This document shows, piece after piece, positions 30,569 through 56,389 of a DNA stretch of 64,000 nucleotides (the first letter of the stretch is position 1; every line of letters starts with the position of its first letter). The stretch lies in contig NZ_CP093312.1 of assembly GCF_023213175.1 (NCBI RefSeq), forward strand, positions 1,240,001 through 1,304,000, in the 5' to 3' direction. The notes under the pieces are model-generated. The model worked only from the letters and a program-made list of their open reading frames with translations. It searched no databases and was not told the DNA's origin. The translations under genes and the position numbers were made by a program. The stretch is from Sulfurovum sp. XGS-02 (GTDB lineage: Bacteria; Campylobacterota; Campylobacteria; Campylobacterales; Sulfurovaceae).

Positions 30569-31537
30569 CTAATTCATAGTACATATATGATTATAGGCCA
30601 TCAGATGCCACCAACTATCATACACACTATTTGATTTCGTCTTATGTGTGTACGGTTTTATTGTTTCTAATTTTATCTCATCATAATAGCTTTGATCACC
30701 CCATCGTTTCAATTGCAACGGCTTCTCAGTATCTGCTAATAATACTCCATAGATCTCCAAATCTTTCTCTATACTCCATTTTTCACGAATAAATAGTTGG
30801 AATTTTTCTAAATATCCCAATAAACTTGGATCGCCGTAATATTTATGCAACCAGCTTTCTTTATTCATATCTTCATAGTTAACTCTATCTTTTTCAAAAC
30901 GTGATGCCTGAGCATTTAAGACTTTAAATTTTTTAGGGTCAATATTACTTTTTGCTTCAATAAGTATTAAACTGTTTTCTACAAGAACAACTGCATCAAC
31001 ACGGCCAGAATCACAAGGGAACTCTAAATACACTTCACACTTTTCAAATGACATATCAAAAAATTTAACAAACTGATAAACAGAGTTAATCTCTGCTATT
31101 GAAGATCCTTCATAATAAAGTTGTGGACGAGTATTTTGTGATACAGTCTTCTCAATTCCTTCGATCATCTTTTCAAAAGCGTTATCAATGATTCCACTTA
31201 AATTTAAGATAAAGACCTCAACTCCCTGCTCTTTCGCATATCTTTCAAGTTCAGACATGTTCTTACTTCTATTATAATTGATAATAAGCACTTTATCCGA
31301 TTTGTTGATCATATCTTTATTGCTATCAGAAAGTCTTCTTTTTGGATGTTGTGTGTTAGAGAAAACTTCATATCCAATTTTTGATATACGGTTTCTAAAT
31401 TTATTTGTTAAAAGGTTTCCCATTTGTAAAGTATCATTTTTTACATGTTCCTTTAAGAATAACTCAATTTCTTTTATATGTTTTTCAAGTATCTCAGCAT
31501 CATCATTCAACTTTCTCGAAATTAATAGTGTTATCAT
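30569..31537 (-). CDS. PD-(D/E)XK nuclease-like protein, last gene of WYL-linked operon
   Basis: 322 aa. The N-terminal ~125 residues look like a Rossmann-type nucleotide- or sugar-binding fold (SDKVLIINYN, VEVFILNLSG), reminiscent of deoxyribosyltransferase/SLOG-like domains, but unassigned. Residues about 165-205 hold EFPCDSGRVDAVVLVENSLILIEAKSNI, a clear D...E-x-K core. The C-terminal part is unrecognised. It is the final gene of an eight-gene minus-strand run and converges on the sirtuin gene, 7 bp apart. Confidence 0.55.
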   Translation of the reverse strand: MITLLISRKLNDDAEILEKHIKEIELFLKEHVKNDTLQMGNLLTNKFRNRISKIGYEVFSNTQHPKRRLSDSNKDMINKSDKVLIINYNRSKNMSELERYAKEQGVEVFILNLSGIIDNAFEKMIEGIEKTVSQNTRPQLYYEGSSIAEINSVYQFVKFFDMSFEKCEVYLEFPCDSGRVDAVVLVENSLILIEAKSNIDPKKFKVLNAQASRFEKDRVNYEDMNKESWLHKYYGDPSLLGYLEKFQLFIREKWSIEKDLEIYGVLLADTEKPLQLKRWGDQSYYDEIKLETIKPYTHKTKSNSVYDSWWHLMAYNHICTMN

Positions 31538-31596
31538 AGTTTTCCCTCTCCCCTAATATTGGTATTATTCTATCTCGTTAATTTAAAAATCTTCAA

Positions 31597-32334
31597 TCAT
31601 ACTGATTTATTACATACAAGTACATTCACACTAAGATCATCTTTTGTTTCATCATAGGTAGTAAAAAGGTCTGCATCTTCATCAATATTTTCGTAAAAGA
31701 AAGTAAAAACCTTTTCATTAAAAACTTCATTCTTTTTTAGAGATGGAAAGTCTATCCATACTGTATTTGCTTTCTCTAACAACTTCCAAAACCTAAGTCT
31801 CTTTCTCTTAGGCATTTCAAGATATGTGTCAGTGATATTAGAAAAGAGATAAAATATACATTTTGCTTTAAAGATAGAATTCAGCATTATTGTAGAAGAA
31901 AAAGAATCCTCTAGTATTCTGTATTCATCTATTTTTTCTATTTGAACCATTGTGAATAATGACTTAATGAATTGATCTAAATCTTTATTCTCTTGATCAT
32001 CAACGATAATAATACTTGCAGCTTGAGTGATTTGATTTAAAACTCTAGTTATATTTTTTGAACTAGGCTTTATACTAGGTAGAATAGTTATAAAAGGAAC
32101 TTCATAGTTCATCAGAAAACTTATTGTTTCCAATATATGTTTTGAAACAAATTCATCTTGTATATCTGCTACTAGAAAAATAAAATCAACATTTTCAAAA
32201 AAGTTAGTATCAGCTATTTTTAGGATATCTTTTTCAGCATGTATGTTATATGTATGTTCCAGATTAAAAAAAGATATTGATGAAGCTATTTCCCCTATTG
32301 TAAGGAATTTAATTTTTATCATTTCATTATGCAA
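31597..32334 (-). CDS. Apparent FtsZ/tubulin-like protein lacking the GTP-binding loop
   Basis: 245 aa from TTG with AAAGGA upstream. No simple match, but the order of elements follows FtsZ: IKFLTIGE; VDFIFLVADIQDEF where FtsZ has its GGGTGTG loop; VPFITILPS; ASIIIVDDQENKDL; and near the end FFYENIDEDADLF then DLSVNVLVCNKS, closely resembling FtsZ's VDPDANIIFG...RVTVIATG. The tubulin signature glycines are missing, so GTP binding is doubtful. If correct it is a pseudo-GTPase serving as scaffold or sensor. Remote-homology call made by eye. Confidence 0.4.
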   Translation of the reverse strand: MHNEMIKIKFLTIGEIASSISFFNLEHTYNIHAEKDILKIADTNFFENVDFIFLVADIQDEFVSKHILETISFLMNYEVPFITILPSIKPSSKNITRVLNQITQAASIIIVDDQENKDLDQFIKSLFTMVQIEKIDEYRILEDSFSSTIMLNSIFKAKCIFYLFSNITDTYLEMPKRKRLRFWKLLEKANTVWIDFPSLKKNEVFNEKVFTFFYENIDEDADLFTTYDETKDDLSVNVLVCNKSV

Positions 32335-32346
32335 TTGATAATCCTT

Positions 32347-32550
32347 TTAAACCCACTCTACAAATGGTGTCCAGAAATGAATATCCATATTATCTTTTAT
32401 AGCTTGAATGTTTTTAGTCACAACATGTCCACTCTCATATACTATATGTATCTCACCCTCTACTTTATAAGCAGCATACGTGTGATGAGCCATATCTGCA
32501 CCAGAACCTAGGTATTCACCTTTACCATAATCTTTGAATTGTTGTTCCAT
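32347..32550 (-). CDS. Hypothetical 67-aa protein
   Basis: Small acidic/aromatic protein ending FWTPFVEWV. It lies 12 bp both from the gene before it and from the gene after it, so it is translated as part of the operon. No family recognised; no signal or membrane helix. Confidence 0.5.
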   Translation of the reverse strand: MEQQFKDYGKGEYLGSGADMAHHTYAAYKVEGEIHIVYESGHVVTKNIQAIKDNMDIHFWTPFVEWV

Positions 32551-32561
32551 TTTAGTACCTT

Positions 32562-32846
32562 TTATTCATTTAGACTAAGTTTTACTGTGCTCATCAAAGG
32601 ACTACTTTTATACAACGTCATAAACTCATCTTTGGATAATTTTCTAGCTGACAAATTATTATGTTCATCGCAATGAATATCTAATTCATCATTTACATCA
32701 GCACTAAGTTCAAAGTAATTGTTTTCTGTTGCTATAACAATACAATCAGCACTGATTGAAGTTGCATTATCCATAATATCTTTAAGTTCATCTTCGCTAA
32801 AAACTTTTAAGAATTTTGAATTAATTACTATTTTCTTCTCTAACAT
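32562..32846 (-). CDS. Hypothetical 94-aa acidic protein
   Basis: Predicted mixed alpha/beta, rich in Asp and Glu, with no known motif. Spacing (42 bp after the 196-aa gene, 12 bp before the 67-aa gene) puts it in the same operon. An antitoxin, inhibitor or structural partner is possible but not shown. Confidence 0.5.
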   Translation of the reverse strand: MLEKKIVINSKFLKVFSEDELKDIMDNATSISADCIVIATENNYFELSADVNDELDIHCDEHNNLSARKLSKDEFMTLYKSSPLMSTVKLSLNE

Positions 32847-32887
32847 AATTTTTACCTTTGTATCCGAATATTGTTCTACTCTATAAC

Positions 32888-33478
32888 TTATATATTTTCT
32901 ATTTGATTACCATCGATATCAAATAGATAAGATTTTTCATCACTATGATGGTAAACATAACTTACTATATCACCCCATGGGAATATTCTTCCATCAGAAT
33001 CCGCATAATGTTCTTTGATTATCTTTGATATTAGAATGAATATTTCTTTATCTGTTCTACCAACCAATTCCACAATATACGGGCGTTCTAATATTCTTAC
33101 ACCTTCAAAAGCATCCATATCAAATGATACTCCTGGTGGAAAAGTATATGGATTAGTTGTGTTCATAGAGATATGTGTTGATCTAAACTTTTCTGCTTCT
33201 TGTACAAATATTCTATCTTTATCAAGTTCATTAGACCATCTTGCAGCGTCTATATCTAATACCTCACAAAGTTTTGATAAAAACTCTACAGCAGTATATT
33301 TAGAATCACGATAACCACTTTCAACCCATGCATATATATCTTCATGCATTAAAAATGTCTCTAAAGTTTTCAATCCTTTTTTCGTAGAGTAATATCCTAT
33401 GCTTTTAACTACTTCTTCTTTAGACATAGGCTGAAGTTTACCAGAGATTATGTCCAGAATTTTTATTGGTTTCACCAT
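32888..33478 (-). CDS. Hypothetical 196-aa protein, possible HTH
   Basis: Residues about 15-80 (VVKSIGYYSTKKGLKTLETF, then AVEFLSKLCEVLDIDAARW) could form a helix-turn-helix bundle. The C-terminal half is beta-rich and ends DIDGNQIENI. No enzyme motif. It is 7 bp downstream of the HhH gene. Confidence 0.5.
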   Translation of the reverse strand: MVKPIKILDIISGKLQPMSKEEVVKSIGYYSTKKGLKTLETFLMHEDIYAWVESGYRDSKYTAVEFLSKLCEVLDIDAARWSNELDKDRIFVQEAEKFRSTHISMNTTNPYTFPPGVSFDMDAFEGVRILERPYIVELVGRTDKEIFILISKIIKEHYADSDGRIFPWGDIVSYVYHHSDEKSYLFDIDGNQIENI

Positions 33479-33485
33479 CTATTTA

Positions 33486-34244
33486 TCACTTGTATCTATT
33501 TAATAGTGTTAAGAACTTTCCTGCCTGTTCTTCAATGTTTTTTAGTACCATCACATCTTTGTCTGCTTCTTTGATCGTCCAATATTTGTCCATATTTATT
33601 ACAAAGTCTCTTTTACTTGAACCCTTTTGAGTAATAAATCCCCAAAACCATAGATCATCAAATAAAATGACATCCTCATTAATAAAATTGCCATGGAGAA
33701 TTTTATTGATATTCTTAAAATTCCATTTCGCTTTATGATTAGCAAGAAAGTTATTGAATATTTCCATTATCACAGTATCAACTGGTAAATACAATTTATC
33801 ACCATCTTCCATCTTTGGAGTATCATTCCAAAATTTCAATTCAGGCTTATCAAAAGAATGATGATAATTGTATATATTCTTTATGAATAAGGATGATGTT
33901 TTGGGTCCCCAGCCTTCTTTTGCTTTTAGACTTTCAAAAAGCTGATTATAAATATCGGTTTGGGAATATTTGTCTATTGGTTTTCCTACAATAAACTTAA
34001 AAAATCCATTAAAGGTATTCAACTGATTTTTATTTGAATAGACTTCTCTAAAAAACTCAGAAACGTTGTCAATATTAGGCTGACTTTGAGTATTTATCGT
34101 GTCATAAAGTAGTGCTACTAATTTATCAAAAGAATCCTCTCTAGAGCCAATAGTGCCTAAGGCATATTCAGTTTGTAATGCTTTGTTGTAATTTTTATTT
34201 TCTTTTAAAAAAAGTAAAATTTCATCTAATTTATTCTTCATCAA
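33486..34244 (-). CDS. Helix-hairpin-helix protein, DNA-glycosylase-fold-like
   Basis: 252 aa. WGPKTSSLFIKNIYN (about residues 114-128) fits a helix-hairpin-helix as in the HhH-GPD superfamily, and D157 in LPVDTVIME occupies the place of the catalytic Asp of these enzymes. There are no Fe-S cysteines. It probably binds DNA; glycosylase activity is uncertain. Third gene of the operon. Confidence 0.5.
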   Translation of the reverse strand: MMKNKLDEILLFLKENKNYNKALQTEYALGTIGSREDSFDKLVALLYDTINTQSQPNIDNVSEFFREVYSNKNQLNTFNGFFKFIVGKPIDKYSQTDIYNQLFESLKAKEGWGPKTSSLFIKNIYNYHHSFDKPELKFWNDTPKMEDGDKLYLPVDTVIMEIFNNFLANHKAKWNFKNINKILHGNFINEDVILFDDLWFWGFITQKGSSKRDFVINMDKYWTIKEADKDVMVLKNIEEQAGKFLTLLNRYK

Positions 34245-34267
34245 GTCTCTTTTTTATATAAACTTTT

Positions 34268-35746
34268 TCAAGATGCATCTTGTGTAATCTGATGTAGTTT
34301 TTCCCAAATACGGACCATTGCTAAAGTATCTAAATGGCAATAAGCAAGTAAATCTGTTTTTATCTGATCTGTCTTTGTTTTATCTTTTAGTAAATGAAGG
34401 TTAGCAAAAGTGTCCATTGCCATTCCACCATTTTGTATATTCAACTTTTTATAATTAAGTTCATCATCATTTGGGAACATAGCAGGTAATACGGATTTAA
34501 TGGAGAAGCTTCCATTAAAATCAGGATGGTAATACCCTTTTTCTCTAAAAGGTACTATAAGGTCAACAAACCTTTCATTCAGTGCCAAAAGTTCTTTCTC
34601 TCTATTTTCATTGAACTTTGCTAGCTCTTTGATTCTACTCATTTCGAAAGCTTGATTATATGCAACGATACTTCCTGTGGATGTAACATCATTTAACATC
34701 TGTTCTATCAATGTGTCTCGAGGATCACTGTTTTCATCACCTAAGAACTCTTTATGTTCCATCGTTCCATCCTCATGGAGTATATGCAGAGAATATTGAA
34801 ACGGTATTTGCATATAGGGACGTTGATTGTCAAATCTTGGAATAGCATTTTGGAATGTTTCAAAGTCAAAAAAGTTTATAGGATACTCGATTGTCTTTAA
34901 AAAGTTATTGATGATATTTTTATCTATATAAGGTTCTTTTGTTTTTGCTGTTTCAACTTGTAATCTTTGTGTATTATTAAGTTTAAAATCATCTGGTATG
35001 TCAGTATAAGTCAACAGTCCTTGATTATACATCTCAAATTTCTTTGCTCCATTCATCCAATAAAGATTAAAAACTGATGGTGTTGGTATATGTTTCCAGC
35101 AATGTCCTTTAAAATCACAACTATATGGGTTATCACAATGTCCACCGATGTCAATATTAGGCATTTCACCTTTTATTACATCTTCCATACGATTCAGAGT
35201 TTCTTTTATCATATTTTGTTTCTCTTTTACTTGTTCTGTCATATCTTCTATTGAAAATAGTTCTGTGACATCAAGTTCTCCCTTTCGCACATATTGGTTA
35301 TTAATATGAACGATGAAAGCACGATTCAAATTTATTGTATTACTTAATGCATACCATTGTATAGCTGCATCATCAATATGAACATCTTTTACTTCAGTAG
35401 AAGCCTTCACTTCATAGATATCCCAAGCATTACCATTTTTCACAAGTATATCTGCCATAGCAAAGATACCATTCTCGCTAAATGTTGCCTCATAGATTAC
35501 CTCAGTACCATTGGCTATAAGCTTTTTGGTTTTACTTACCATGCCATTGAAATTACTGGTATCGAACTCTATTTCAACACCTTTAGGAAAGAGTTCTTTT
35601 GCTAATTCACCTACGCTGTAACCTGTATTAAAAAGTGACTCTTGTGCTTCATCTGGTATATCTCTAAGTTCTGGTCTATTTTTATAGAGCCAGAGAGATT
35701 TTTGACATTGTAAGCCTCTTATGTATTGAGATTTAGATATGGTCAT
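34268..35746 (-). CDS. Cas4-like PD-(D/E)XK plus DUF2779 (DEDD-type) nuclease
   Basis: 492 aa from ATG 35746 (AGGAG 6 nt upstream); an in-frame extension to 35827 has no ribosome site and overlaps the previous gene. The N-terminus MTISKSQYIRGLQCQKSLWL, the WDIYEVKAS core (E-x-K) and the Cys cluster C-x5-C-x5-C before HIPTPSVF, with the N-terminal Cys, give a Cas4/RecB-like Fe-S nuclease of the TM0106 type. Residues about 300-460 form DUF2779 with NFFDFETFQ and VAYNQAFE, an RNase H-like exonuclease pattern. No CRISPR array or other cas gene is nearby. Confidence 0.75.
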   Translation of the reverse strand: MTISKSQYIRGLQCQKSLWLYKNRPELRDIPDEAQESLFNTGYSVGELAKELFPKGVEIEFDTSNFNGMVSKTKKLIANGTEVIYEATFSENGIFAMADILVKNGNAWDIYEVKASTEVKDVHIDDAAIQWYALSNTINLNRAFIVHINNQYVRKGELDVTELFSIEDMTEQVKEKQNMIKETLNRMEDVIKGEMPNIDIGGHCDNPYSCDFKGHCWKHIPTPSVFNLYWMNGAKKFEMYNQGLLTYTDIPDDFKLNNTQRLQVETAKTKEPYIDKNIINNFLKTIEYPINFFDFETFQNAIPRFDNQRPYMQIPFQYSLHILHEDGTMEHKEFLGDENSDPRDTLIEQMLNDVTSTGSIVAYNQAFEMSRIKELAKFNENREKELLALNERFVDLIVPFREKGYYHPDFNGSFSIKSVLPAMFPNDDELNYKKLNIQNGGMAMDTFANLHLLKDKTKTDQIKTDLLAYCHLDTLAMVRIWEKLHQITQDAS

Positions 35747-35787
35747 TTGAAACTCCTGTTTTTTTGTATAAGGAAGTGTATTATTAT

Positions 35788-35810
35788 ATATGGACAATAA
35801 ATGTCTATAT
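35788..35810. promoter_or_regulatory. Inverted-repeat operator candidate inside the operon
   Basis: ATATGGACA-ATAAA-TGTCTATAT, 9-bp arms with one mismatch. Its core GACAATAAATGTC matches GACAATAATAGTC (minus strand of 37032-37044) at 11 of 13 bases. It lies 42 nt before the Cas4-like gene and over the previous stop codon, so it may control an internal promoter. Confidence 0.45.
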
Positions 35811-36851
35811 TTTACTTGAGTTGTCAATAAACTTTTTCAAAAAAACAGAGAACTCTTTTACTGCATCCTCAAGACTATTAGGATCACTTAAATTCATAAT
35901 AGCTATTTCAGATTCTCTAGCTTTATATCTTGGTTTTTTATTTACTCTAATATTACTGTTCTCAATAGATTTCAAAATATTATTTGTGATTTCTATATTT
36001 TTATTTAAACTATCTGTTTTACTCTCTAATGTAAAATCTTTCTTGGAATATTCCATTAATCTAAGACAATGCCCTTCTTTTAACTGTTTCATTTTAACGA
36101 ATATACTGAAGTCATTAGCAAGGTGACAAGTCCACCATGTATCCCACCTTTTTCCATTCCTTGTAAATCTAATATATTCTGGTATTGGTTCATTATGTCC
36201 AAGAGTTAGATGTTTAATTTTTTCTAAAATTGCATACTGTACATATCCTTCTTTTGCATCAGTATATTCCCAGTCTTCTAATTCCTTTTTACTATTATTT
36301 TTGTAAAGTTTATTGTAAAAGTTTCTTTCTATATAATCTATATAATCTTTTAAAATTAAATTATTAATATTATGGTAATTTTTCAAAAAATCATATAACC
36401 ATAATGTGTCTAAAATAATGTAACTTGCTTTTTTTGTTTCATTCCTATCTTTTTCTGTTATATGTCCCGTTTTAAAGAATACTTTTACAGCATTATCCTT
36501 TGAAACTTTTTTTGTATATCTTAACAGTTGATCAGAATGAGGTTCTGTCCATGTTTTATCCTCTATAATAAATGGTATTGTCTCCTCATCAGTCTCAACT
36601 TCAAAATATACATCTATTTTGTGATATTGTTGTCTTAATTTTACTGACTTTATTTCCAAATCTTTTGCATTATGATTGCCAATCATATTTATCTGGTATT
36701 TTGTATACAATTCACTAATAAAGTCTTTGGATAATTCATGTAATTCCTCTTCTTCATTATCAAACCAACCGATCAGTAAACTTATAAATGCATCTTGGCT
36801 CAATTCTGATGTAGCATAATCAAAAATGTTTTGTGACATTCCTTGCGACAT
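35805..36851 (-). CDS. PD-(D/E)XK nuclease family protein
   Basis: 348 aa. The opening IFDYATSELSQDAFISLLIGWFD is the signature of a PD-(D/E)XK family common in defence islands. The active-site strand is KIDVYFEVETDEETIPFIIEDKT (Asp, then Glu-Asp-Lys). The C-terminal third is unrecognised and Lys-rich. It is the first gene of the eight-gene operon, reading away from the WYL regulator with 238 bp between them. Confidence 0.7.
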   Translation of the reverse strand: MSQGMSQNIFDYATSELSQDAFISLLIGWFDNEEEELHELSKDFISELYTKYQINMIGNHNAKDLEIKSVKLRQQYHKIDVYFEVETDEETIPFIIEDKTWTEPHSDQLLRYTKKVSKDNAVKVFFKTGHITEKDRNETKKASYIILDTLWLYDFLKNYHNINNLILKDYIDYIERNFYNKLYKNNSKKELEDWEYTDAKEGYVQYAILEKIKHLTLGHNEPIPEYIRFTRNGKRWDTWWTCHLANDFSIFVKMKQLKEGHCLRLMEYSKKDFTLESKTDSLNKNIEITNNILKSIENSNIRVNKKPRYKARESEIAIMNLSDPNSLEDAVKEFSVFLKKFIDNSSKI

Positions 36852-37089
36852 TCTATATTCCTTTTATATTAAAATTTATAACAAAATCGAATTCTAACTA
36901 TGCCAGAACTAAGCTCATCATCAGTCGTCCAAGTATATATCTTGGACTCGTTACTTGTTAGTGACTCGGTTATACACATATTCGTGGATTCTTGTATATA
37001 TCCCCCTCTAACACACATTTTATTACACTAAGACTATTATTGTCCACATTAACCAATACTATTGTAAAATAATTGTATAAAGGGAATCT
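36852..37089. promoter_or_regulatory. Divergent control region between WYL regulator and nuclease operon
   Basis: 238 bp without a gene. It holds a near-palindrome CCAAG-TATATAT-CTTGG near 36931-36947 and the 13-mer GACTATTATTGTC (37032-37044) that recurs at 35793-35805 in opposite orientation. These are plausible binding sites for the divergently encoded WYL protein. Confidence 0.5.
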
Positions 37090-37998
37090 ATGGAAAAGCT
37101 TCTTCAGCATCAAAGACACAACATTATCCTCGAACGTTTGAGCAATGGAGAGACACTATCCATTACAGATCTTGCAAAGGAATGGTCCATCGCTACCAAA
37201 ACTGTACAAAGGGACTTTGAAAAATTACAGGAAGGAAACTATGGTGTTATTCGTGCTAGTGATGGAAAGCGCTTTACACTTTCAATGCAACACACTACCT
37301 CAAAAAGTGCAGATACTGCTATAAAAATGCTTGATAGTCTTTCATCTGATATAGGTGGAGAATTTTATACTAAAGCCCAAGCTGCGCTTCATAAACTTCA
37401 GCGTTATATCGAATCACCTTTTTATACCCGAATAGATGTAGAGAATATCTCAGATAAACTTGACCTAATAGAAGATCTAGAATATGCGATTTCAACACAA
37501 AAAATGGTGACATTTAAATATAAACGATGGTACAAACCAGATGAAATTAAAACCTATGAAAATGTTAAACCATACAAGATTATCATTTTTGATGGCTTTT
37601 GGTATCTACTTACACAGTACAAAGACCATTATATAAAGTTCTATCTTAAAGAGATTATTGATTTGAAAATATTGGAAAAGACCTTTGAATATGATGATAA
37701 AGTTTTAGATAGAATGGATAAGGCACTTGATATCTGGTTTGATCCTAAAACTGAACCTTTTGATGTTACGCTCTTGCTTGATAGTGATGCTATCGTATAT
37801 TTCGAAAGAAAGCCTATCAAAGGACAGTTTCTCAAAAAAAATTCTGATGGTACAGCAGAACTAACAGTGAGTATCACTAATAAAAAGGAAATCTTTACTA
37901 TTTTAAAAAAATGGTTACCACAAATTAAAGTCATAGAACCAATGAAATTACAAGAAGAGTTTGAAAGGATATTGCAAGGCTATTTAGCGAACAATTAG
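37090..37998 (+). CDS. WYL-domain transcriptional regulator
   Basis: 302 aa. Residues 1-70 are a winged HTH (ETLSITDLAKEWSIATKTVQRDFEKL). Residues about 140-205 are the WYL domain (MVTFKYKRWYKPDEIKTYENVKPYKIII, then FWYLLTQY). A C-terminal WCX-like extension follows. WYL regulators such as CapW and BrxR repress anti-phage operons until infection. Its divergent placement makes it the likely switch of the minus-strand operon ending at 30569. Confidence 0.88.
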   Translation: MEKLLQHQRHNIILERLSNGETLSITDLAKEWSIATKTVQRDFEKLQEGNYGVIRASDGKRFTLSMQHTTSKSADTAIKMLDSLSSDIGGEFYTKAQAALHKLQRYIESPFYTRIDVENISDKLDLIEDLEYAISTQKMVTFKYKRWYKPDEIKTYENVKPYKIIIFDGFWYLLTQYKDHYIKFYLKEIIDLKILEKTFEYDDKVLDRMDKALDIWFDPKTEPFDVTLLLDSDAIVYFERKPIKGQFLKKNSDGTAELTVSITNKKEIFTILKKWLPQIKVIEPMKLQEEFERILQGYLANN

Positions 37999-41866: not shown

Positions 41867-42811
41867 TCATTTTTGGAAGCCAGAGTAGAGGCTTAATTCA
41901 TTTGCAATATCCTTTGTTAATTTTGCAAGTGAATGCTTTGAGTTGTCATCCTCATATAAAACCTCTCCAAAAAGATCTTGTTTAACTTTTTCAATTGGTT
42001 GTCGTGTCAAAAGCGCGATTTCTTTAATTCTGCTATCAGGATATATTCTTCTTTTTTTAATCATGTTTAAAATATATGGTTTAAAGTATTCATATCTTCC
42101 ATTTAGCTCAAAAACATCAATATACTGAGTGTAATCATCTGTAAAATCTTCTTTGAGCAAAAGATCAAAATCAATTTTATCGTTGATTTGTATAGAAGGA
42201 GGTTTCATAAAGGTCTTAAATTTAACCTGCTGATCAAATTTAAAATTTTTTGCACTTGGTGAAACTTTCACTATACCTTTTTCTTGTGTCCAAATCTCTT
42301 TGGATCCTTTTAGCTTTGAATTACAGATATAACAACTTGGAATCAAGTTATAAATACTTAAAGCAAATAAAGGATAGGTAGCTTTGTCTATCAAGTGGTC
42401 CAAAGTAAAACCATTTTTTTTCCTTTTGCTTTTTGTATTAAATACATTGATAAAATCTATATTACAAAAGTAACAAGTATGGATCTCAATATTATTTTCA
42501 AAAAATGAAGCAATTTTTGGTTGTAATTTTGAGAGTAGTGGTTTAATATTTTTGGACTTAGTCTTATCGTAGTTGAATAATTCCTTTATCTTTCTGTTAT
42601 TTTTATATTTTGAACCAGCTGACTTTTTTATTTCAATAAGCTTCTCAATGTCTCCACATATGACATCTTTTAACGGATATTTAATTTTAGATTCCCAATT
42701 ATCTTGATAATATTGTTCAAAAGTTTTACCGTTAAAACTTTTAGGTTTAGTCTGAGAAATAACATCATAATATTTCTCTAGCTGTGATATTGTATATTTT
42801 AATTGAACCAT
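41867..42811 (-). CDS. HNH endonuclease-like protein, Septu PtuB-like
   Basis: 314 aa. CYFC, then FTLDHLIDKATYP, LIPSCYICNSKLKGS: two Cys pairs and the DH/N pattern of an HNH nuclease, in the middle of the protein. It begins 1 bp after the ATPase stop, so the two are co-translated. ATPase plus HNH is the arrangement of Septu (PtuA-PtuB) and retron-linked PtuAB. This protein is longer than typical PtuB and may be a distinct branch. Confidence 0.75.
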   Translation of the reverse strand: MVQLKYTISQLEKYYDVISQTKPKSFNGKTFEQYYQDNWESKIKYPLKDVICGDIEKLIEIKKSAGSKYKNNRKIKELFNYDKTKSKNIKPLLSKLQPKIASFFENNIEIHTCYFCNIDFINVFNTKSKRKKNGFTLDHLIDKATYPLFALSIYNLIPSCYICNSKLKGSKEIWTQEKGIVKVSPSAKNFKFDQQVKFKTFMKPPSIQINDKIDFDLLLKEDFTDDYTQYIDVFELNGRYEYFKPYILNMIKKRRIYPDSRIKEIALLTRQPIEKVKQDLFGEVLYEDDNSKHSLAKLTKDIANELSLYSGFQK

Positions 42812-44563
42812 TTACTGCATCTCTTCAAGTTGATTTATTTCATTTTTCAATCTACTTATTTTATTGGCTTTAGCAATATCTTTATCAAATAAAATTAATT
42901 CTATTTCTATGATATGATTATCTAAAATTTGTTTTATATAATCGTCACCCATTGATAATAATATATACTCAAACATCTTTTGATTAGCCCCATATTCCTT
43001 ACGTAAATCATCATAATTAGGTTTTTTTGCTGATTCTTCTTTCTTAACTTTATCATAAAAGGTAAGTATTGCCTGAATTGCACTTTGAGAAAAATCACCG
43101 GACAACCCTTCATCCATAAAAAAGCTATCAGTTAAAATCGTATGAATATCAGCCCCAAAAGTTTGATTAATATTTTTGAGTCCATCAACAACTTTACAAT
43201 ATCCATCATCATCTTTATCCAAAAAAAGAATATTTTCTTTGGCAATATCTGAGAGCAGGAAGGGAGAGTGTGAAGCAAAAATTATATGGAACTTGTAATC
43301 TGCCCCATATCTACTTAATATATTTTTATGTACATGTATAAAAAAACGCAAAACAGAATCAAAAATCGATTTTTGCCATCTTGGATGTAAATTATTTTCT
43401 ATTTCATCAAGTAAAATGATAATATTCTTTACATCTCCACGCTTCGGTCTAAATGAAAAAACTGCATTCAGTAGTAAATAGAAGTTCAAGAGAAAATTCT
43501 CCTCGCCACTACTTAAACTCCTAAAATAAATTTCAAAAAACTGGTCTTGATTATTCCGATTATAGAGATAAAGTTCTTTATACTTTATCATTAATTCGAT
43601 AGCATCTTCCATACTTAACTCAATCTCTTCGGATGCAGTACAACTCTCATTCACATATAATTTCAGAGTAGTTAAAAAATTATCTAGTGCCTCTGCATAC
43701 TCCTCAGGTCTTATCGATTGCATATATTCTTCTCCATCTTCGCTTGTATAAAACTCCGGTATCTGAAAAAACTTCTGTGCCTTCTCCAAAAAAGTTGTAT
43801 TCCAGCCGATACTATTTGCTGTACTATTTGAGGCAATTAACAATGTAACTGTTGGCTCATTTTGAATTTTAAACGGAATAAATGTTTTATAGTCTTTATA
43901 AAACTCTAAAATCGAAAAAGTTTTCGCAAAATTAAAATTATTTCGCATCTCTTTTATGAAAAATGCATCCTGCTGTCTATATCCAGAAGAGGATGGATTA
44001 TTGCCAAAATAACGATTTGAATTTAAAACCATATTTAATAATGTTTGAACTTTTAAATTCTCATTTGCCACATTACTATCACCATGGCCTGTACCAGATT
44101 TTATAAATCTTTGCAAAACTGGTGCAATAAATTCTTCAATATAATTATCAAAATAACCATTACTAAAACTAGAGGAATTATAAATAGTTGAAATGTGTGT
44201 TTTGAGTGTATCTAAAGTATGAACTGTACGGTCCTCTACTTCAAGATTACTAAAAATAATCTCCTCATCACCATTTTTAAGTATACATACAATACCATTA
44301 TCAATGTATCGGTCAATATCTCCTACTTGTAGTTTTGCAATAACTTCAAATATACTACTCTTCCCACTCCCATTTTTTCCAACAATAGCACTAATTCTAA
44401 TGTTTTTTGAAAATAATTTAGAGTAATTGCCTGGGTTATCTTCATGAGTAATTTCTTTAGTTGACTCCGAATATGTGTAAACATATGGTGAAGAAAAATT
44501 AAATCCCTCTTCTTTTATGTTTTTATACTCTTTAACCCACAAATAAACAAGTTCCACCGTCAT
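42812..44563 (-). CDS. SMC/ABC-type AAA ATPase, Septu PtuA-like
   Basis: 583 aa. Walker A VGKNGSGKSS (62-70), signature LSSGEENFLLNFY, Walker B IILLDEIENNLHP and the His switch IIFASHSPFLLSDI: a complete ABC/SMC-like ATPase with a long helical middle region. With the downstream HNH protein it forms a Septu-like pair, in which the ATPase is thought to hold the nuclease in check until infection. No TOPRIM domain, so not an OLD/Gabija GajA protein. Confidence 0.8.
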   Translation of the reverse strand: MTVELVYLWVKEYKNIKEEGFNFSSPYVYTYSESTKEITHEDNPGNYSKLFSKNIRISAIVGKNGSGKSSIFEVIAKLQVGDIDRYIDNGIVCILKNGDEEIIFSNLEVEDRTVHTLDTLKTHISTIYNSSSFSNGYFDNYIEEFIAPVLQRFIKSGTGHGDSNVANENLKVQTLLNMVLNSNRYFGNNPSSSGYRQQDAFFIKEMRNNFNFAKTFSILEFYKDYKTFIPFKIQNEPTVTLLIASNSTANSIGWNTTFLEKAQKFFQIPEFYTSEDGEEYMQSIRPEEYAEALDNFLTTLKLYVNESCTASEEIELSMEDAIELMIKYKELYLYNRNNQDQFFEIYFRSLSSGEENFLLNFYLLLNAVFSFRPKRGDVKNIIILLDEIENNLHPRWQKSIFDSVLRFFIHVHKNILSRYGADYKFHIIFASHSPFLLSDIAKENILFLDKDDDGYCKVVDGLKNINQTFGADIHTILTDSFFMDEGLSGDFSQSAIQAILTFYDKVKKEESAKKPNYDDLRKEYGANQKMFEYILLSMGDDYIKQILDNHIIEIELILFDKDIAKANKISRLKNEINQLEEMQ

Positions 44564-46127: not shown

Positions 46128-47099
46128 CTAAAAATCATCAAGTATACTATCATCTAAGTCATCCATCGAAAAATCAAAAAAATCATCAAAATCATCTTCT
46201 TCATAATCATCATGACTAGCATTAAAAATTGATCTTGTATCAATATCACTACTACAACCAATTATAATTTTAAAGTGCGTACCAATAATTGGACTTTTTA
46301 TAGATATTATACCATCAGGGTTAATACTATTAAAAGAAATTTCATATTCATTGGTACGACAAGTAATAGCACCATTGGAACTTAAAACAAAATCTTTTAA
46401 TTTAGCTAGGCCATTACCCCTTGAAGGCATTATTTCCTTATGTCTAGAGGTATTTTGTTCGAATGCCTTTTTTAACACTTCCTCCCTAGATAACTCTGGA
46501 TAAGCAGTCTCTAAACTATTTACTATTCCAATACCAGAATCAGAAATACCGATCTCTATGTTATTTTTTTGCCCACCATAATATTGTGCACATACAAACC
46601 CAGGTTTACTTACACTTCTTTCAGCTTGTTTAAACTCACCACCATTGCAGTGTTCTAATATATTATCTGTTACTTCATATGTTGTAAGTAAAATACCTAA
46701 TATTAAGTTTTCTTTATTTTGTATATGTGCTTTTAGTATGGCTTTTAATCTTTCATCTATAAAATCGGGGTCTTCGTCATTCTGCACTTTTTTACACTCC
46801 ATCATATTTCTCAATACAGAGTGTCTATTAAATCTCTCTTCTAAATTATAATTTAAATTTTTAAAAAAATCTGCTCTTTGTAGATATTTAATATCATCAA
46901 AATCATTAAATGATATTTTTATCTGTGGCTTGGTGCTATTTCTTAAGTTAACTAGTGTAGATAGAAAAGCTATTCCACTAGGTTTTGAAAAAACTTTATA
47001 AAATTTAATTGTTAGATCTCCAGATATATCAATTAAATGCTCATAATTGTTAGATACGTACTCAAATGTGAGATCATTGTCGATTACTATATTTGTCAT
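46128..47099 (-). CDS. Histidine-kinase-like ATPase (HATPase_c), anti-sigma-factor type
   Basis: 323 aa. Residues about 1-110 are unrecognised. The Bergerat fold follows: N box TTYEVTDNILEHC, G1 box ISDSGIGI, and G2 SRGNGLAKL. There is no phospho-acceptor His domain, so it is not a sensor kinase. The tail is strikingly acidic (EEDDFDDFFDF...). With the adjacent STAS-like protein it recalls SpoIIAB-SpoIIAA partner switching. Confidence 0.75.
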   Translation of the reverse strand: MTNIVIDNDLTFEYVSNNYEHLIDISGDLTIKFYKVFSKPSGIAFLSTLVNLRNSTKPQIKISFNDFDDIKYLQRADFFKNLNYNLEERFNRHSVLRNMMECKKVQNDEDPDFIDERLKAILKAHIQNKENLILGILLTTYEVTDNILEHCNGGEFKQAERSVSKPGFVCAQYYGGQKNNIEIGISDSGIGIVNSLETAYPELSREEVLKKAFEQNTSRHKEIMPSRGNGLAKLKDFVLSSNGAITCRTNEYEISFNSINPDGIISIKSPIIGTHFKIIIGCSSDIDTRSIFNASHDDYEEDDFDDFFDFSMDDLDDSILDDF

Positions 47100-47945: not shown

Positions 47946-49138
47946 CCTTTACTCCTAATAGTAATGAAGAAAAATATATTGATATACTAGATAGCTCAAC
48001 ACATGGTGAATTTGTTTTGATTCGGATGACACCTACTATGTTGAATAAGTCAATCATTGATGCTTCCCATCCATTAAGGTTATTATTAAAAGAAAATCTG
48101 GGAATAGACTATTCTACAATGGAACAAGGAGCTAAAAATGGTCTCAAAGAAGAAGTAGAATTATTAGTTAATGGTGAAATACAGACTCGTTCTATCAGTT
48201 ATTATAGACCAAAAACAAAAAAAGGTGATCCCCGGTTTTGGATTTCTAGACTTCATAACGAAGTTAAACCTTTTGATATGCTATTGTTAACAGTATGGGA
48301 AGGAAGATTGTATGCCTTACCATTAGTTGGAGATATTGAGCTTTTTGCAACTGTATTAAAAAAAATATTTTATGTTGATACTAAGACCTTGCCTTCTGCA
48401 GTACTTGAAGTACAAGATATGATTAAAGGTCTTTACCGAAGAGGTTGGATAAAAACACTTAGAGCTGGAGATACAGGTGTAGGATATACATTTGAAACAG
48501 AAAATAACATAAAAGAAAACTCTAGCAAAGAACCGGATCATAAAGGGGTGGAAATTAAGTGTTCAAGGCTAGGTACTTCTACGTTACAAACGTTATTTTC
48601 AAGAACACCGAACTATTCTGACCTTCCCAATAAAAGAAAAGATTTAGTCGTAAATTATGGATATTGGGATAGTGAAAAGAGTCGGTATGCACTTTATATG
48701 ACAATTAAGGTAAATGAAGAGAACTCCAAGGGATGGAAGCTAGAGTTTGATTATGAACAAGAACGAATTTATGTCGTAAAAAATGGAGAAAAGGTTGTCT
48801 TTTATGAATATTCAGCTTTACAGGATGCACTTGCACAAAAGCATAAACGTACAGTTTTCATAAAGGCACAATCACAAAATCGTAAAAAGAAAAATGATAC
48901 TAACGAAGAGTTTTTATACGAATCAGCATTTTATTGTGAAGATAGCTCGTTTATTAACTTTATAGCCCTGATGGAAGAAGGTAAGGTAAGCTTGGACTTT
49001 GCTATACACCATAGCCCTGAAACAGGAAAAACCCGTGACCATGGTTTCCTCTGGAGAATTAGTAAAGAATTTATTCCATTACTCTTTAAGAGGCAAGTTC
49101 AGCTATGCATCAAAGATTCAGATTGTCAAAAATCTTGA
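47942..49138 (+). CDS. MvaI/BcnI-family restriction endonuclease
   Basis: 398 aa. TGVGYTFETENNIKENSSKE followed by PDHKGVEIKCSR is the MvaI/BcnI catalytic block (Asp, then Glu-x-Lys). Family members cut CC(W or S)GG-type sites as monomers. The first 160 residues are an extra domain, perhaps for target recognition. It converges with and overlaps the methyltransferase gene by 13 bp, the layout of a type II R-M system. Confidence 0.85.
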   Translation: MTFTPNSNEEKYIDILDSSTHGEFVLIRMTPTMLNKSIIDASHPLRLLLKENLGIDYSTMEQGAKNGLKEEVELLVNGEIQTRSISYYRPKTKKGDPRFWISRLHNEVKPFDMLLLTVWEGRLYALPLVGDIELFATVLKKIFYVDTKTLPSAVLEVQDMIKGLYRRGWIKTLRAGDTGVGYTFETENNIKENSSKEPDHKGVEIKCSRLGTSTLQTLFSRTPNYSDLPNKRKDLVVNYGYWDSEKSRYALYMTIKVNEENSKGWKLEFDYEQERIYVVKNGEKVVFYEYSALQDALAQKHKRTVFIKAQSQNRKKKNDTNEEFLYESAFYCEDSSFINFIALMEEGKVSLDFAIHHSPETGKTRDHGFLWRISKEFIPLLFKRQVQLCIKDSDCQKS

Positions 49139-50529
49139 AGTAAACTCTTTATGTGTTCCGCTATGGCTTTTGCCATAAGTGGAGGTACAGCATTGCCTAC
49201 TTGTGTATATTGAGGAACTTCGGTTTTTCTTTTATCTCCACCTGTTGTTTCTTTAGACCTAAATTCAAAATAGTCAGGAAAAGACTGGAACCTAGCTTGT
49301 TCTCGTACTGTTACTGTTCTAGGATAAACAGGATGTATGACATCATCTGGGACACTAACTACTGTTGGGGAAGGTTTATCAAGTTTTAATGGTCTTTGTG
49401 AGTGTTTTTTTGTTTCTAGCTCAATTATTTTACTAACGAGTTCTTCTTGGTTAGTGGCAATAATAGTACTATCCGGTGCCATAGCGGGAAAAGAACACGT
49501 CTCAATTTCTTTATGTATTTGCTCTAAAAAACTAGGATCTTGTGAAGAGGTATATTTGGCAGCCATATTAAATACTTTTGTAGAGACATCATTCATTGAA
49601 AAGTATTGGTAAAGTCTAAAACGTTGTTCAACTTTTTCTGTATGTTTACGTAAAACTTGGTTAGCATTTGGCGAAGTACCATTTTTAATGACTTTTTTAA
49701 AGCCACTTTTTTTGTTGAGGTTATCCAAATATTTTTGATTGTTAAATGGTTCTTCAAATAAGTCGCCAATAGCATCACTGACAGAAAGTATTTCCTTTTC
49801 TTTGACCGTAGGTACTGGACAAAGTGGTGATATTTCTTTACCGCTATAGTAGTTTTTCGAATTCCAGATATCTTTAGTAGCAAAAAGGCTTTTCTTCTCT
49901 GCAATATCTTTCCGTATACCAAGTAGCATTACTCTAGGTCTATGTTGTGGAACACCATAATGCATGGCATTAAGTTGAAGTTCTTGTACAACATATTGTG
50001 TAGACTCTTTGTCTTCTCCAAAACCTGTTTCTAAAAGTGTTTTGATTTGAGAAAAAGGTGCATCTTTATCATGCTTATTAAAGCGTTGTCTCATACCAAC
50101 GACATTTTCCATTAGTACTGCTTTAGGTTTGAATATTTCAACATATTCTAAAAATTGCCAAGGAAGCTGATTTCTATGATCTTTTGGATTACGCTTGCCT
50201 GCAAGTGAAAATCCTTGGCAAGGAGGTCCACCAATAATGACATCTATTTCTTGAAGCTTTTGCTTTGTTTGTTCAAGTAATTTAGGCTTTTCAAGTAATT
50301 CTAAAGTTTCTCCAATAAATAAACCTTCATCAAGTTTTTCTTCTATGGGTTTTTGCAGAAAATTTTTCCATTCAGAATCATTTTTAATATTTTTAATAAA
50401 ATTATGGTAAAAAGTTTCTCCAGCCATACTGGACTTTTCAACCGCAAAACCAAGTTTAAACCCTGCAGCTTCAAATCCAAGCGTTAAACCACCACAACCA
50501 GCAAATAAGTCTATATATTTATGTTCCAT
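49126..50529 (-). CDS. DNA (cytosine-5) methyltransferase
   Basis: 467 aa. Motif I DLFAGCGGLTLGFEAAGF, motif IV GGPPCQGFSLAGKR with the catalytic Cys, motif VI MENVVGM, motif VIII-like QHRPRVMLLGIR and a C-terminal motif X region (QVGNAVPPLMAKAIAEH). It protects the host against the convergent MvaI/BcnI-type enzyme. A cytosine methylase (DruM) is also part of type II Druantia, so an association with the operon at 51.4 kb cannot be excluded. Confidence 0.93.
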   Translation of the reverse strand: MEHKYIDLFAGCGGLTLGFEAAGFKLGFAVEKSSMAGETFYHNFIKNIKNDSEWKNFLQKPIEEKLDEGLFIGETLELLEKPKLLEQTKQKLQEIDVIIGGPPCQGFSLAGKRNPKDHRNQLPWQFLEYVEIFKPKAVLMENVVGMRQRFNKHDKDAPFSQIKTLLETGFGEDKESTQYVVQELQLNAMHYGVPQHRPRVMLLGIRKDIAEKKSLFATKDIWNSKNYYSGKEISPLCPVPTVKEKEILSVSDAIGDLFEEPFNNQKYLDNLNKKSGFKKVIKNGTSPNANQVLRKHTEKVEQRFRLYQYFSMNDVSTKVFNMAAKYTSSQDPSFLEQIHKEIETCSFPAMAPDSTIIATNQEELVSKIIELETKKHSQRPLKLDKPSPTVVSVPDDVIHPVYPRTVTVREQARFQSFPDYFEFRSKETTGGDKRKTEVPQYTQVGNAVPPLMAKAIAEHIKSLLQDF

Positions 50530-50638
50530 GAAAAGAATTATAGCTATATTAATAAAAAAAGTCCAGGAATTATTTCAAAATGACATTTTTATTTTACAAT
50601 TAATCAAATTTTTTAAAAGAATTATTGTAAGCTACAAT

Positions 50639-51316
50639 ATGATGGTTGATAAAAAAAGAATTTTTTATTTTAAAATAAAATTATTAGATTGGTTTCAACA
50701 TAATCAACGTAGTTTTCCCTGGCGAGAAGCAAACAGGTCTTGTTATGAAATTGTGATTGCTGAAATTCTTCTTCAACGAACAAAAGCAGAAACAGTAAAA
50801 AAATATTATCAAGTATTTTTGAATAGGTTTAATAGTTGGGAGAGTCTAGCTGCTTCAACAGAAGTAGAAATAGGTGAATATTTAAAGCCTTTTGGTTTAT
50901 GGCGCCAAAGATCAAAAAGAATAAAAGCATTAGCTCAGGAGATTGAACGTTTACACGGATTACCAAAGTCCAAGAAGCAGCTAGAGAAACTTCCAATAAT
51001 GGGAAAATACATTGTAAATACAATATTAACACAGTGTTATGGTCATAAAGAAGCATTTGTTGATGTAAATATGGTCCGTGTATTAGAAAGGTTTTTTAGA
51101 CCGGGAGAAAAAGTTGATTTCCGATATGATCCTTTCATTCAGAATCTTGCTAAAAAAATAGTTTATCGGCAAAAACATAAAGAAACTATTTTTTTAAATT
51201 GGGCTATATTAGATTTTTCAGCATTAGTTTGTAAAAGCAAAAACCCTTTATGTAGCAAATGCCCATTATATAGAAAATGTAATTACTACCATTTAAACAC
51301 ACTTGATAATTCTTAA
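50639..51316 (+). CDS. HhH-GPD glycosylase with Fe-S cluster, Mig-like T:G mismatch glycosylase
   Basis: 225 aa. MutY/EndoIII fold: FPWREANRSCYEIVIAEILL, hairpin LPIMGKYIVNTIL, catalytic Asp in AFVDVNMVRVL and a 4Fe-4S loop C-x6-C-x2-C-x5-C near the end. The residue matching the lyase Lys of EndoIII (GRK) is Tyr (GKY), as in the thymine glycosylase Mig of Methanothermobacter, which also accompanies a cytosine methylase. It probably repairs T:G left by 5-methylcytosine deamination. ATG 50639 is chosen; the frame stays open to 50528 inside the methylase promoter. Confidence 0.82.
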   Translation: MMVDKKRIFYFKIKLLDWFQHNQRSFPWREANRSCYEIVIAEILLQRTKAETVKKYYQVFLNRFNSWESLAASTEVEIGEYLKPFGLWRQRSKRIKALAQEIERLHGLPKSKKQLEKLPIMGKYIVNTILTQCYGHKEAFVDVNMVRVLERFFRPGEKVDFRYDPFIQNLAKKIVYRQKHKETIFLNWAILDFSALVCKSKNPLCSKCPLYRKCNYYHLNTLDNS

Positions 51317-53373: not shown

Positions 53374-55065
53374 GTGAAAAATTATTTAGATTGGAATGAT
53401 GCAATTATTCAATATTTTTCTAGTAACTACATAAAAGGTACACCAGTATATCTTACAGTTAATGACACTAACTTAGAAAACATAGGAACTGAAGTCTTAA
53501 AGCTAAAACGAGAAGAATGCGCTAATTTATTTCTAGATGCTGTTAAGAGAAAGTGTATAGACCCTTTTCATCGAAATAAATTGAACTTAACTTCGATAGA
53601 TAAAGTGAATGAAAATGGTACTCCAGAGTGCGTAGCTTTTCTAGGTCTTCTTGTTTATGCTGCTCATAAGATGAAATCTGACGATGATACCAGTAGTACC
53701 AATTACTTTAAATGGCTCAATCAATTACTGGACTTCGACTCTGAAGGAAGACCTGATGGGCTAGAACGAGGATTCAGTGAAAAGCTTTGGAAACGGTGGG
53801 GTCTCTGGTTGGAGAAAAATGGATGGTTACCCTCGGCAACTGCTGGAATTGGAAATATGAAATACATTCATTATTCACTTTCACAAGCTTTACTTCGTGA
53901 AGATGACATAAACTACTTAAAAAATAAATTTATTAATTCATACAAGTCAAATCAATTATTCTGTTATTATGATGAGAGCCAATTAAGTTTTTGGATACTT
54001 AAAAATATTCATAAAAAACATCTTTATGATGGGATTCATTCTACTGATGATAATAGATCTGATACTTTTCTTGATGCAATTTATTCACTATTTGAAACAA
54101 TGAATTGGGATGAAGGTGCAACTGAAACAAAATATATAACTCGTTCAAATATTATTACATGCGGTTTATATAGGACACTTACTTTTCCAAATAAAGTTAC
54201 ATATCAGCTGTTTCCAAAAATACCTAGAGGGTTTAAAAATCAAAACATACATGTTGATGGAGAAAAATTAATAGAGTTTAGGGGAAAACATTTTGGCCCA
54301 TTAAATCCTATTCACCCCTTCAAAGAAGTACTACGAGAAGAAATTCAGGATGACTTAGGTTTTTTTACCAACATGTACATGCCTAAAAAAGAGTTTTGGA
54401 TATTAACAAGTGATGAAGATGATAATCTAGGAGTTTATGCGACATGGGATAGGTACCCTAATTTACTAGGTAAAAAATTTATTATTGTTCTACCTACAGT
54501 AAATCAAGAAATGCATGACGAAATGGAAATATTTAAAAGCCAAGAGTTGATTGTGTGGGAAAATAAAGTAAATATTTCAGATGATATAGTTGAATATCAA
54601 CAATGTATGATTTTATCAAGAGGATGGGATAGTATTATTCCTAAACCAAGTTCCCAAGAACTCTTCGATGCTCTTAAACCACGTCAATTTGCAACTATTT
54701 CATTATCTGCTGGGCTGAAAGATATTACAGACAATAGCTGGATTAAAGGGTTTCCCCCCATAATGAAGATTTATGGATTTGAAAACATATTTCATATAGA
54801 CATACATAAAAACGAAGAGATAATAGAAACAATAAATATTAACAACCAAGAAGAATATCCCTTAATAGCATGTTCAGAAGCTGGAAGGTATGAAATTAGA
54901 GTTTCATGGCATAGCCAAGAAATATCAAGAAGAACCTTCATAGTAAAACCATGGGAAGACCTAAATATACAAAAACAAGAGTATTCACCATGTCATGATT
55001 ACAATAAGCTAGGCATCAGTACTTGTGGAGCTTTTACCAAATTGTGTGATAAGGGAGGTTTATAA
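53374..55065 (+). CDS. Hypothetical 563-aa protein of DUF1998-helicase operon
   Basis: Starts GTG after GGAG, 1 bp after the previous stop. No enzyme motif recognised. The middle region (TCGLYRTLTFPNKVTYQLFPK, WILTSDEDDNLGVYATWDRY) looks beta-rich. The last 100 residues have an immunoglobulin-like feel (YEIRVSWHSQ). Its stop shares a base with the next start, so it is stoichiometric with it. Probably a structural or sensor subunit; it may correspond to one of the Dru proteins. Confidence 0.6.
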   Translation: MKNYLDWNDAIIQYFSSNYIKGTPVYLTVNDTNLENIGTEVLKLKREECANLFLDAVKRKCIDPFHRNKLNLTSIDKVNENGTPECVAFLGLLVYAAHKMKSDDDTSSTNYFKWLNQLLDFDSEGRPDGLERGFSEKLWKRWGLWLEKNGWLPSATAGIGNMKYIHYSLSQALLREDDINYLKNKFINSYKSNQLFCYYDESQLSFWILKNIHKKHLYDGIHSTDDNRSDTFLDAIYSLFETMNWDEGATETKYITRSNIITCGLYRTLTFPNKVTYQLFPKIPRGFKNQNIHVDGEKLIEFRGKHFGPLNPIHPFKEVLREEIQDDLGFFTNMYMPKKEFWILTSDEDDNLGVYATWDRYPNLLGKKFIIVLPTVNQEMHDEMEIFKSQELIVWENKVNISDDIVEYQQCMILSRGWDSIIPKPSSQELFDALKPRQFATISLSAGLKDITDNSWIKGFPPIMKIYGFENIFHIDIHKNEEIIETININNQEEYPLIACSEAGRYEIRVSWHSQEISRRTFIVKPWEDLNIQKQEYSPCHDYNKLGISTCGAFTKLCDKGGL

Positions 55066-56387: not shown

Positions 56388-56389
56388 TA

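Follow-up and report, generated by a model that had tools for sequence, protein, structure and literature searches.

Does the compact run of eight genes that is read away from a WYL-domain regulator in Sulfurovum sp. XGS-02 form a defense system in its own right, as was first proposed from the DNA letters, or is it one assembly among many that draw on common parts? The genes, designated A to H, lie in a window of 64,000 nucleotides, by which we mean the whole stretch of DNA analyzed (positions 1,240,001-1,304,000 of a 2.19-Mb single-contig genome). They are eight minus-strand open reading frames (ORFs) extending from 36851 down to 30569 with inter-gene gaps of 7-61 bp, the 61-bp value applying if gene B starts at the ATG at 35743, and they diverge from the regulator gene across a 238-bp region, in agreement with the layout given in the original prediction. 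The reading favored here, with a probability of roughly 55%, is that the locus is one instance of WYL-associated mosaic arrays, whose exchangeable genes are drawn from a shared pool and make up an inducible anti-virus toolkit. The anti-phage purpose of such arrays is probable, and the transcription of A-H as an operon, its regulation, and the enzymatic activities of its products are predicted from sequence.

Recurrence of the array genes around WYL regulators

The regulator carries three domains whose Pfam scores all exceed the curated cut-offs (PF08220, 30.8 bits; PF13280, 30.0 bits; PF25583, 29.3 bits). It is encoded by the sole WYL-domain gene found in its genome (one PF13280 match), and its nearest homologs also stand in similar arrays. 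The Campylobacterota-type genomes surveyed hold about one WYL gene each. Expected counts were computed from uniform placement and rounded genome sizes. On this basis, a WYL gene (PF13280) lies no more than 10 kb away in 20 of 59 cases of B (0.6 expected) and 16 of 31 cases of D (0.63 expected), and in 5 of 31 cases of D (0.15 expected) B is equally near; the related species behind these counts are not independent samples. The association with WYL genes that had been supposed is genuine and recurrent, lying far above expectation for both B and D. Regions around further WYL genes contain 1.1 pool families on average, three of these regions having been known beforehand to contain B, as against 0.1 in random regions. 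Pool genes adjoin 26 of the 30 WYL proteins most like that of the window (blastp 100 bits or more) and only 4 of 17 more distant ones, a contrast that is overstated because many of the loci were entered via B or D. The phylum genomes in which each gene was found number 63 of 249 for B, 28 of 298 for D, and 4 of 298 for E, one of the E matches being weak; the two other genomes that match E strongly both carry it in WYL arrays.

What recurs is a series of overlapping sub-sets (B+C, B+C+WYL, B+E+WYL, D+E+WYL, and B+D+WYL), mixed with other genes. Among the latter are restriction-type members, namely McrB/McrC, paired GmrSD, PDDEXK_4 nucleases, and an HNH protein, together with SIR2, ADP-ribosylglycohydrolase, a Porphyromonas-type deiminase, 5'-nucleotidase, a UPF0227 esterase, and a double-AAA protein. 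In G003, a genome of the window's own family, a single stretch contains a WYL gene together with B, E, and a GmrSD pair. In genome G296, one contig carries WYL, deiminase, ADP-ribosylglycohydrolase, McrBC, D, and three copies of E, and a second contig carries WYL, GmrSD, B, and SIR2. The array of G186 combines a homolog of the N-terminal domain of H, a protein with a tubulin/FtsZ GTPase domain, a SLOG protein, SIR2, WYL, and a protein of the uracil-DNA glycosylase (UDG) superfamily, the last by a weak Pfam match. Gene order and content vary in every WYL array compared.

The set and order A-H were found in no other locus among the 64 to which C was traced and the DUF2779 and D loci examined, and the eight genes are therefore most likely not a fixed system, contrary to what had been proposed. 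Neighborhood comparison, named at the outset as the check that would count against the proposal if the genes never traveled together, gave a divided answer: overlapping sub-sets around WYL genes do recur, whereas the full set did not in the loci examined. The statistics indicate a particular WYL subgroup that has a pool of exchangeable genes to itself; this pool includes at least two protein families without a Pfam profile (C and D), while the strong matches to E in the survey all fall within WYL arrays.

Predicted products of the array

The features of the locus are collected in Table 1. Among the array genes, only B and the WYL protein were confidently identified by Pfam, NCBIfam, and PADLOC, and none of the three names a system that matches the eight-gene set, as had been anticipated; the operon completes no named system in PADLOC, giving partial matches only (Cas4, WYL, SIR2 (Aga), and PDC-S26).

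Table 1. Features of the WYL-associated locus (window coordinates)
Feature	Position	Strand	Basis
SIR2-family protein, N-terminal zinc ribbon-like segment	29677..30561	+	PF02146 1e-20; convergent with H
H: 322 residues, N-terminal domain of ~115 residues and C-terminal PD-(D/E)XK-like region	30569..31537	-	motif by eye
G: orphan protein of about 241-245 residues	31597..32334	-	no homolog in 249 genomes
F: small protein, 67 residues	32347..32550	-	ORF, 11-12 bp gaps both sides
E: 94 residues, recurrent in WYL arrays	32562..32846	-	homologs in G296, G003
D: 196 residues, family common to WYL arrays	32888..33478	-	homologs in phylum genomes (see text)
C: 252-residue helix-hairpin-helix protein, candidate DNA glycosylase/apurinic-apyrimidinic lyase	33486..34244	-	AlphaFold model, structural matches
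B: Cas4-like nuclease domain and DUF2779 (RNase H-like, predicted 3'-5' exonuclease)	34268..35743	-	PF11074 1e-45
A: 348 residues, PD-(D/E)XK-like motifs	35805..36851	-	ORF; PADLOC PDC-S26 4e-7 (weak)
Region between the divergent genes, presumed to hold the promoter/operator of each transcript	36852..37089		238 bp between A and WYL
WYL regulator (DeoR-type winged helix-turn-helix, WYL, WCX)	37090..37998	+	Pfam PF08220/PF13280/PF25583

The assignment of B as a Cas4-like/DUF2779 protein was upheld by its Pfam match and by a Cas4-like match in PADLOC (5e-8). Its ORF opens at a TTG at 35827, inside gene A, and the ATG is the likelier start; residue numbers here follow the 519-residue ORF. In 36 homologs the Cas4-type residues D126, E139, K141, D153, Q157, C41, C231, and C243 are invariant, as are D321, E323, and D500 of the RNase H-like domain (D-x-E...D), and Cys237 is kept in 90% or more. 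The closest DUF2779 relative, 74% identical, is carried on an Aliarcobacter plasmid.

The helix-hairpin-helix (HhH) motif that had been noted in C is present and is supported by both a 44-sequence alignment and the AlphaFold (AF2) model built from it, which has a predicted local distance difference test (pLDDT) score of 96. When this model was compared by VIA-align, ranks 1-36 were all DNA glycosylases or close structural relatives, including NTHL1, AGOG, MutY, and OGG-type enzymes, with endonuclease III as the best match (Z 10.1, 3.5 Å over 165 residues). Bifunctional HhH glycosylases possess a catalytic Lys followed by a catalytic Asp. Seven residues of C are identical in all 44 sequences, i.e., Gly113, Lys115, Thr116, Pro154, Val155, Asp156, and Val158, with Lys115 lying within GWGPKT and Asp156 within LPVDTVI; this pair was likened to the catalytic residues of endonuclease III and OGG1 by motif order, without residue-level superposition, the pair in OGG1 being K249-D268 (PMC13160076). 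The window protein matches no Pfam family at E<=1, PF00730 is absent among the 25 Pfam families listed for the 44 members, and a PDB profile search with the family found no glycosylase; hhalign of C against HhH-GPD, with a comparison set that held few nth sequences, aligned only the hairpin. Since no sequence profile joins C to HhH-GPD, we do not file it in that superfamily. The model nevertheless suggests that C probably acts in the manner of a base-excision glycosylase and possibly has lyase activity also.

Four of the C loci also contain B: in L048 it lies directly upstream of C, in L050 it is close by, and in L027 and L049 the two genes are accompanied by WYL. A second recurrent partner is found in Flavobacteriia, where C directly follows a gene for a 136-residue NOV_C/MTES_1575-like (nuclease-related) protein (9572-9982 of L015 and 17 similar loci). 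In L033 (5823-8231), C comes after a SMODS nucleotidyltransferase and a 145-residue protein, near type I restriction genes, a context like that of the cyclic oligonucleotide-based antiphage signaling system (CBASS). Viral contigs scanned with C and its alignment contained no relatives and phage records no C, and a plasmid search found C once.

Motifs of the PD-(D/E)XK type can be seen by eye in A (IDVYF...IIEDK) and H (GRVDAVV...LIEAK), and plasmid homologs of A are annotated as PD-(D/E)XK; the nuclease calls originally made for both proteins are supported to this extent, while the Pfam and NCBIfam scans gave nothing significant for either. A DUF2325 match to H (E 0.013) fell below the curated cut-off and was not used. 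Only one further genome matched H, and this through the N-terminal domain alone, which is a separate 128-residue protein in the WYL array of G186 (35% identity, E 1e-16). The Pfam/NCBIfam scan gave no significant family for F. The description of G as FtsZ-like was not confirmed: no tubulin/FtsZ profile of Pfam or NCBIfam matches it at E<=1, no GGGTGTG-type loop is present, its alignment to a real FtsZ GTPase-domain protein in L179 was not above shuffles, and its single-sequence model (pLDDT 45) is too poor for use. That protein of L179 (4421-4996, in G186) has 191 residues and consists of the GTPase domain only (PF00091 1e-20); it lies near the UDG-superfamily protein and the homolog of the H N-domain. 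A TIR_3 match to G (E 0.016) was likewise below the curated cut-off and unused, and the only match to G among the 249 genomes, in G276, is MreC and was discarded as a chance match. As whole proteins, G and H have no relatives in these genomes, and none were found in the viral contigs scanned with them; in the plasmid search D and G were absent and H gave only a borderline half-length match. The SIR2 gene beyond H, on which the original prediction was silent, probably belongs to the same gene pool as the array, homologs (41-43%) being found in WYL/DUF2779 arrays and SIR2 also in L163, L176, and L212.

Weighing of the possible roles

If the locus is a mosaic array of the kind proposed, the regulator would keep the operon low until it binds a nucleotide or nucleic acid that signals infection by a phage or damage to DNA; precedents exist for ligand-relieved repression by WYL proteins (PMC9122601, PMC4012209). 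The derepressed operon would then supply largely separate, exchangeable effectors that attack invading DNA. Judging from its fold and residues, C would remove a base and may nick the resulting site via Lys115, and B, as its fold, its residues, and the repeated B-C adjacency suggest, would degrade DNA from the end left by C, while A and H would be further endonucleases if their motifs are a guide. The pool would offer DNA-attacking and NAD/ADP-ribose-handling genes in varied combinations and orders. A bolder version, which is tentative and in our view rather doubtful, is that WYL arrays are undescribed modular anti-phage cassettes with genes swapped in and out, that C founds a family of HhH-fold anti-phage glycosylases, and that C opens modified phage DNA by base excision for B to degrade. 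If it is true that C excises modified phage bases, the strategy of the Brig enzymes would have evolved independently on the commonest repair-glycosylase fold.

Several observations weigh against the mosaic-array reading, in addition to the non-independence of related species mentioned above. DUF2779 genes that lie near a WYL gene make up about a third of the total, short of a majority. C is alone in most of its 64 loci and occurs in 1 of 298 genomes of the phylum, so that it is not a core member of the pool, and DNA-repair genes are among some of its neighbors. The structural case for C is tempered by a Foldseek list that is led by DNA glycosylases with weak E-values (best 0.41) and by the fact that all-helical proteins can reach a Z of about 10 through a common helix arrangement. 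In the divergent region, only weak imperfect inverted repeats and no recognizable operator were found, and a promoter scan gave promoter-like matches no more often than chance.

The repair genes bring in the chief rival to an anti-phage role, that is, a DNA-damage response or repair module in which a PafBC-like WYL protein senses damage, C repairs bases, and B and the nucleases process host breaks. C stands beside AddA/AddB in L062 and L043, with a WYL gene upstream of AddB-AddA-C in the former, and on a Cupriavidus plasmid it lies among LigD, NucS-like, ImuA/ImuB-type, DnaE2, and SRAP genes; SbcC/SbcD are among the DUF2779 neighbors, and a WYL activator is reported to respond to genotoxic stress in mycobacteria (PMC10693628). 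Such a module is nonetheless unlikely, given that in Campylobacterota the pool abounds in ADP-ribose genes and type IV restriction (McrBC, GmrSD) and not in repair genes, that the surroundings in the window are defense genes, and that the distribution is patchy. It might also be supposed that there is no functional unit at all, the genes being of defense type but merely piled up in a hypervariable island where the WYL protein controls few or none of them. The tight one-strand spacing of A-H and the strong tendency of B, D, E, and SIR2 to recur beside WYL genes make this quite unlikely, even though the composition never repeats, C is unique in 298 genomes, and G is an orphan. The close spacing and the divergent regulator are also what would be expected of the fixed, undescribed system originally envisaged, in which all eight products are needed; since neither the set nor the order was found again in the loci examined, and since G and H lack whole-protein relatives in 249 genomes, that reading is highly improbable. 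The mosaic array remains the reading we prefer.

Genomic setting and comparison with known systems

The GC content is ~30% from ~26 kb to the end of the window, compared with 43-48% over the greater part of the first 24 kb, and the low-GC stretch also encodes a PIN protein, a NERD protein, and a UvrD-like helicase. On the basis of the low GC and the surrounding defense-type genes, the operon looks like part of an acquired defense island. An ATPase/HNH pair (41867-44563) matches the PADLOC candidate PDC-M62A/B (Septu-like), homologs of which adjoin DUF2779 in locus L118. Druantia-like DruF/DruL-like genes and a 1864-residue DruE (best match DruE4, 1555 bits) occupy 53374-61984, and a nearby cytosine methylase (49126-50529) resembles DruM. 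An HhH-GPD protein similar to MutY/T-G glycosylases (50528-51316) adjoins a cytosine methylase and an MvaI/BcnI restriction endonuclease and is possibly a mismatch repair partner of this restriction-modification set. A 323-residue protein at 46128-47099 weakly matches the N-terminal part of DrmA (5e-11) and belongs to no Pfam family. Outside the low-GC stretch, a lipoprotein-like secreted protein (13047-13847) ends in a long D/N-rich repeat (DDDDDNDGI...) resembling thrombospondin type-3.

WYL-controlled defense operons are already known. Regulators of the BrxR/CapW type govern mixed defense operons and islands, about half of BrxR homologs co-localize with known systems, with type IV restriction among the commonest, and Picton and colleagues proposed WYL regulators as a guide to undescribed defense systems (PMC9122601). 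The present locus resembles those in having a winged helix-turn-helix-WYL regulator that adjoins genes of mixed defense type, but its content (DUF2779, C, D, E, SIR2, and the N-domain of H) is not that of bacteriophage exclusion (BREX), CBASS, or any named set. In other genomes, the type IV restriction systems McrBC and GmrSD both occur within these WYL arrays, but the window's own operon has neither. DUF2779 has been described as an RNase H-like clade (F.17) accompanied by a DUF83/Cas4-like domain and predicted to be a 3'-5' exonuclease (PMC3985635); B has both domains with the invariant acidic, Lys, and Cys residues, and the papers found go no further than that prediction, leaving the recurrent link to WYL arrays unmentioned. 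A literature search outside subscription papers turned up no description of that link, of the WYL subgroup with its exchangeable pool (which includes DUF2779, D, and E), or of the C family.

C resembles the HhH-GPD glycosylases (endonuclease III, AGOG, OGG1, and MutY) in a predicted all-helical fold, in a GxGxKT hairpin whose Lys is invariant, and in a PVDxVI motif further on whose Asp is likewise invariant. It differs from them in lacking a Pfam HhH-GPD match and iron-sulfur cysteines, in its low identity to endonuclease III (13% over 165 residues), in the spacing of 40 residues from Lys to Asp, and in a family-specific [FW]DDLWFWGF motif. Anti-phage DNA glycosylases do exist in the form of Brig1 and Brig3 (PMC11078745, PMC13160076), and C would be comparable to them as a base-excising enzyme in defense islands, one Brig1 context also adjoining ADP-ribosylglycohydrolase and SIR2 genes. 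Brig1, however, has a uracil-DNA-glycosylase fold, while C is all-helical with structural matches to HhH glycosylases, and because of this difference in fold C would be an analog of Brig1, not a relative.

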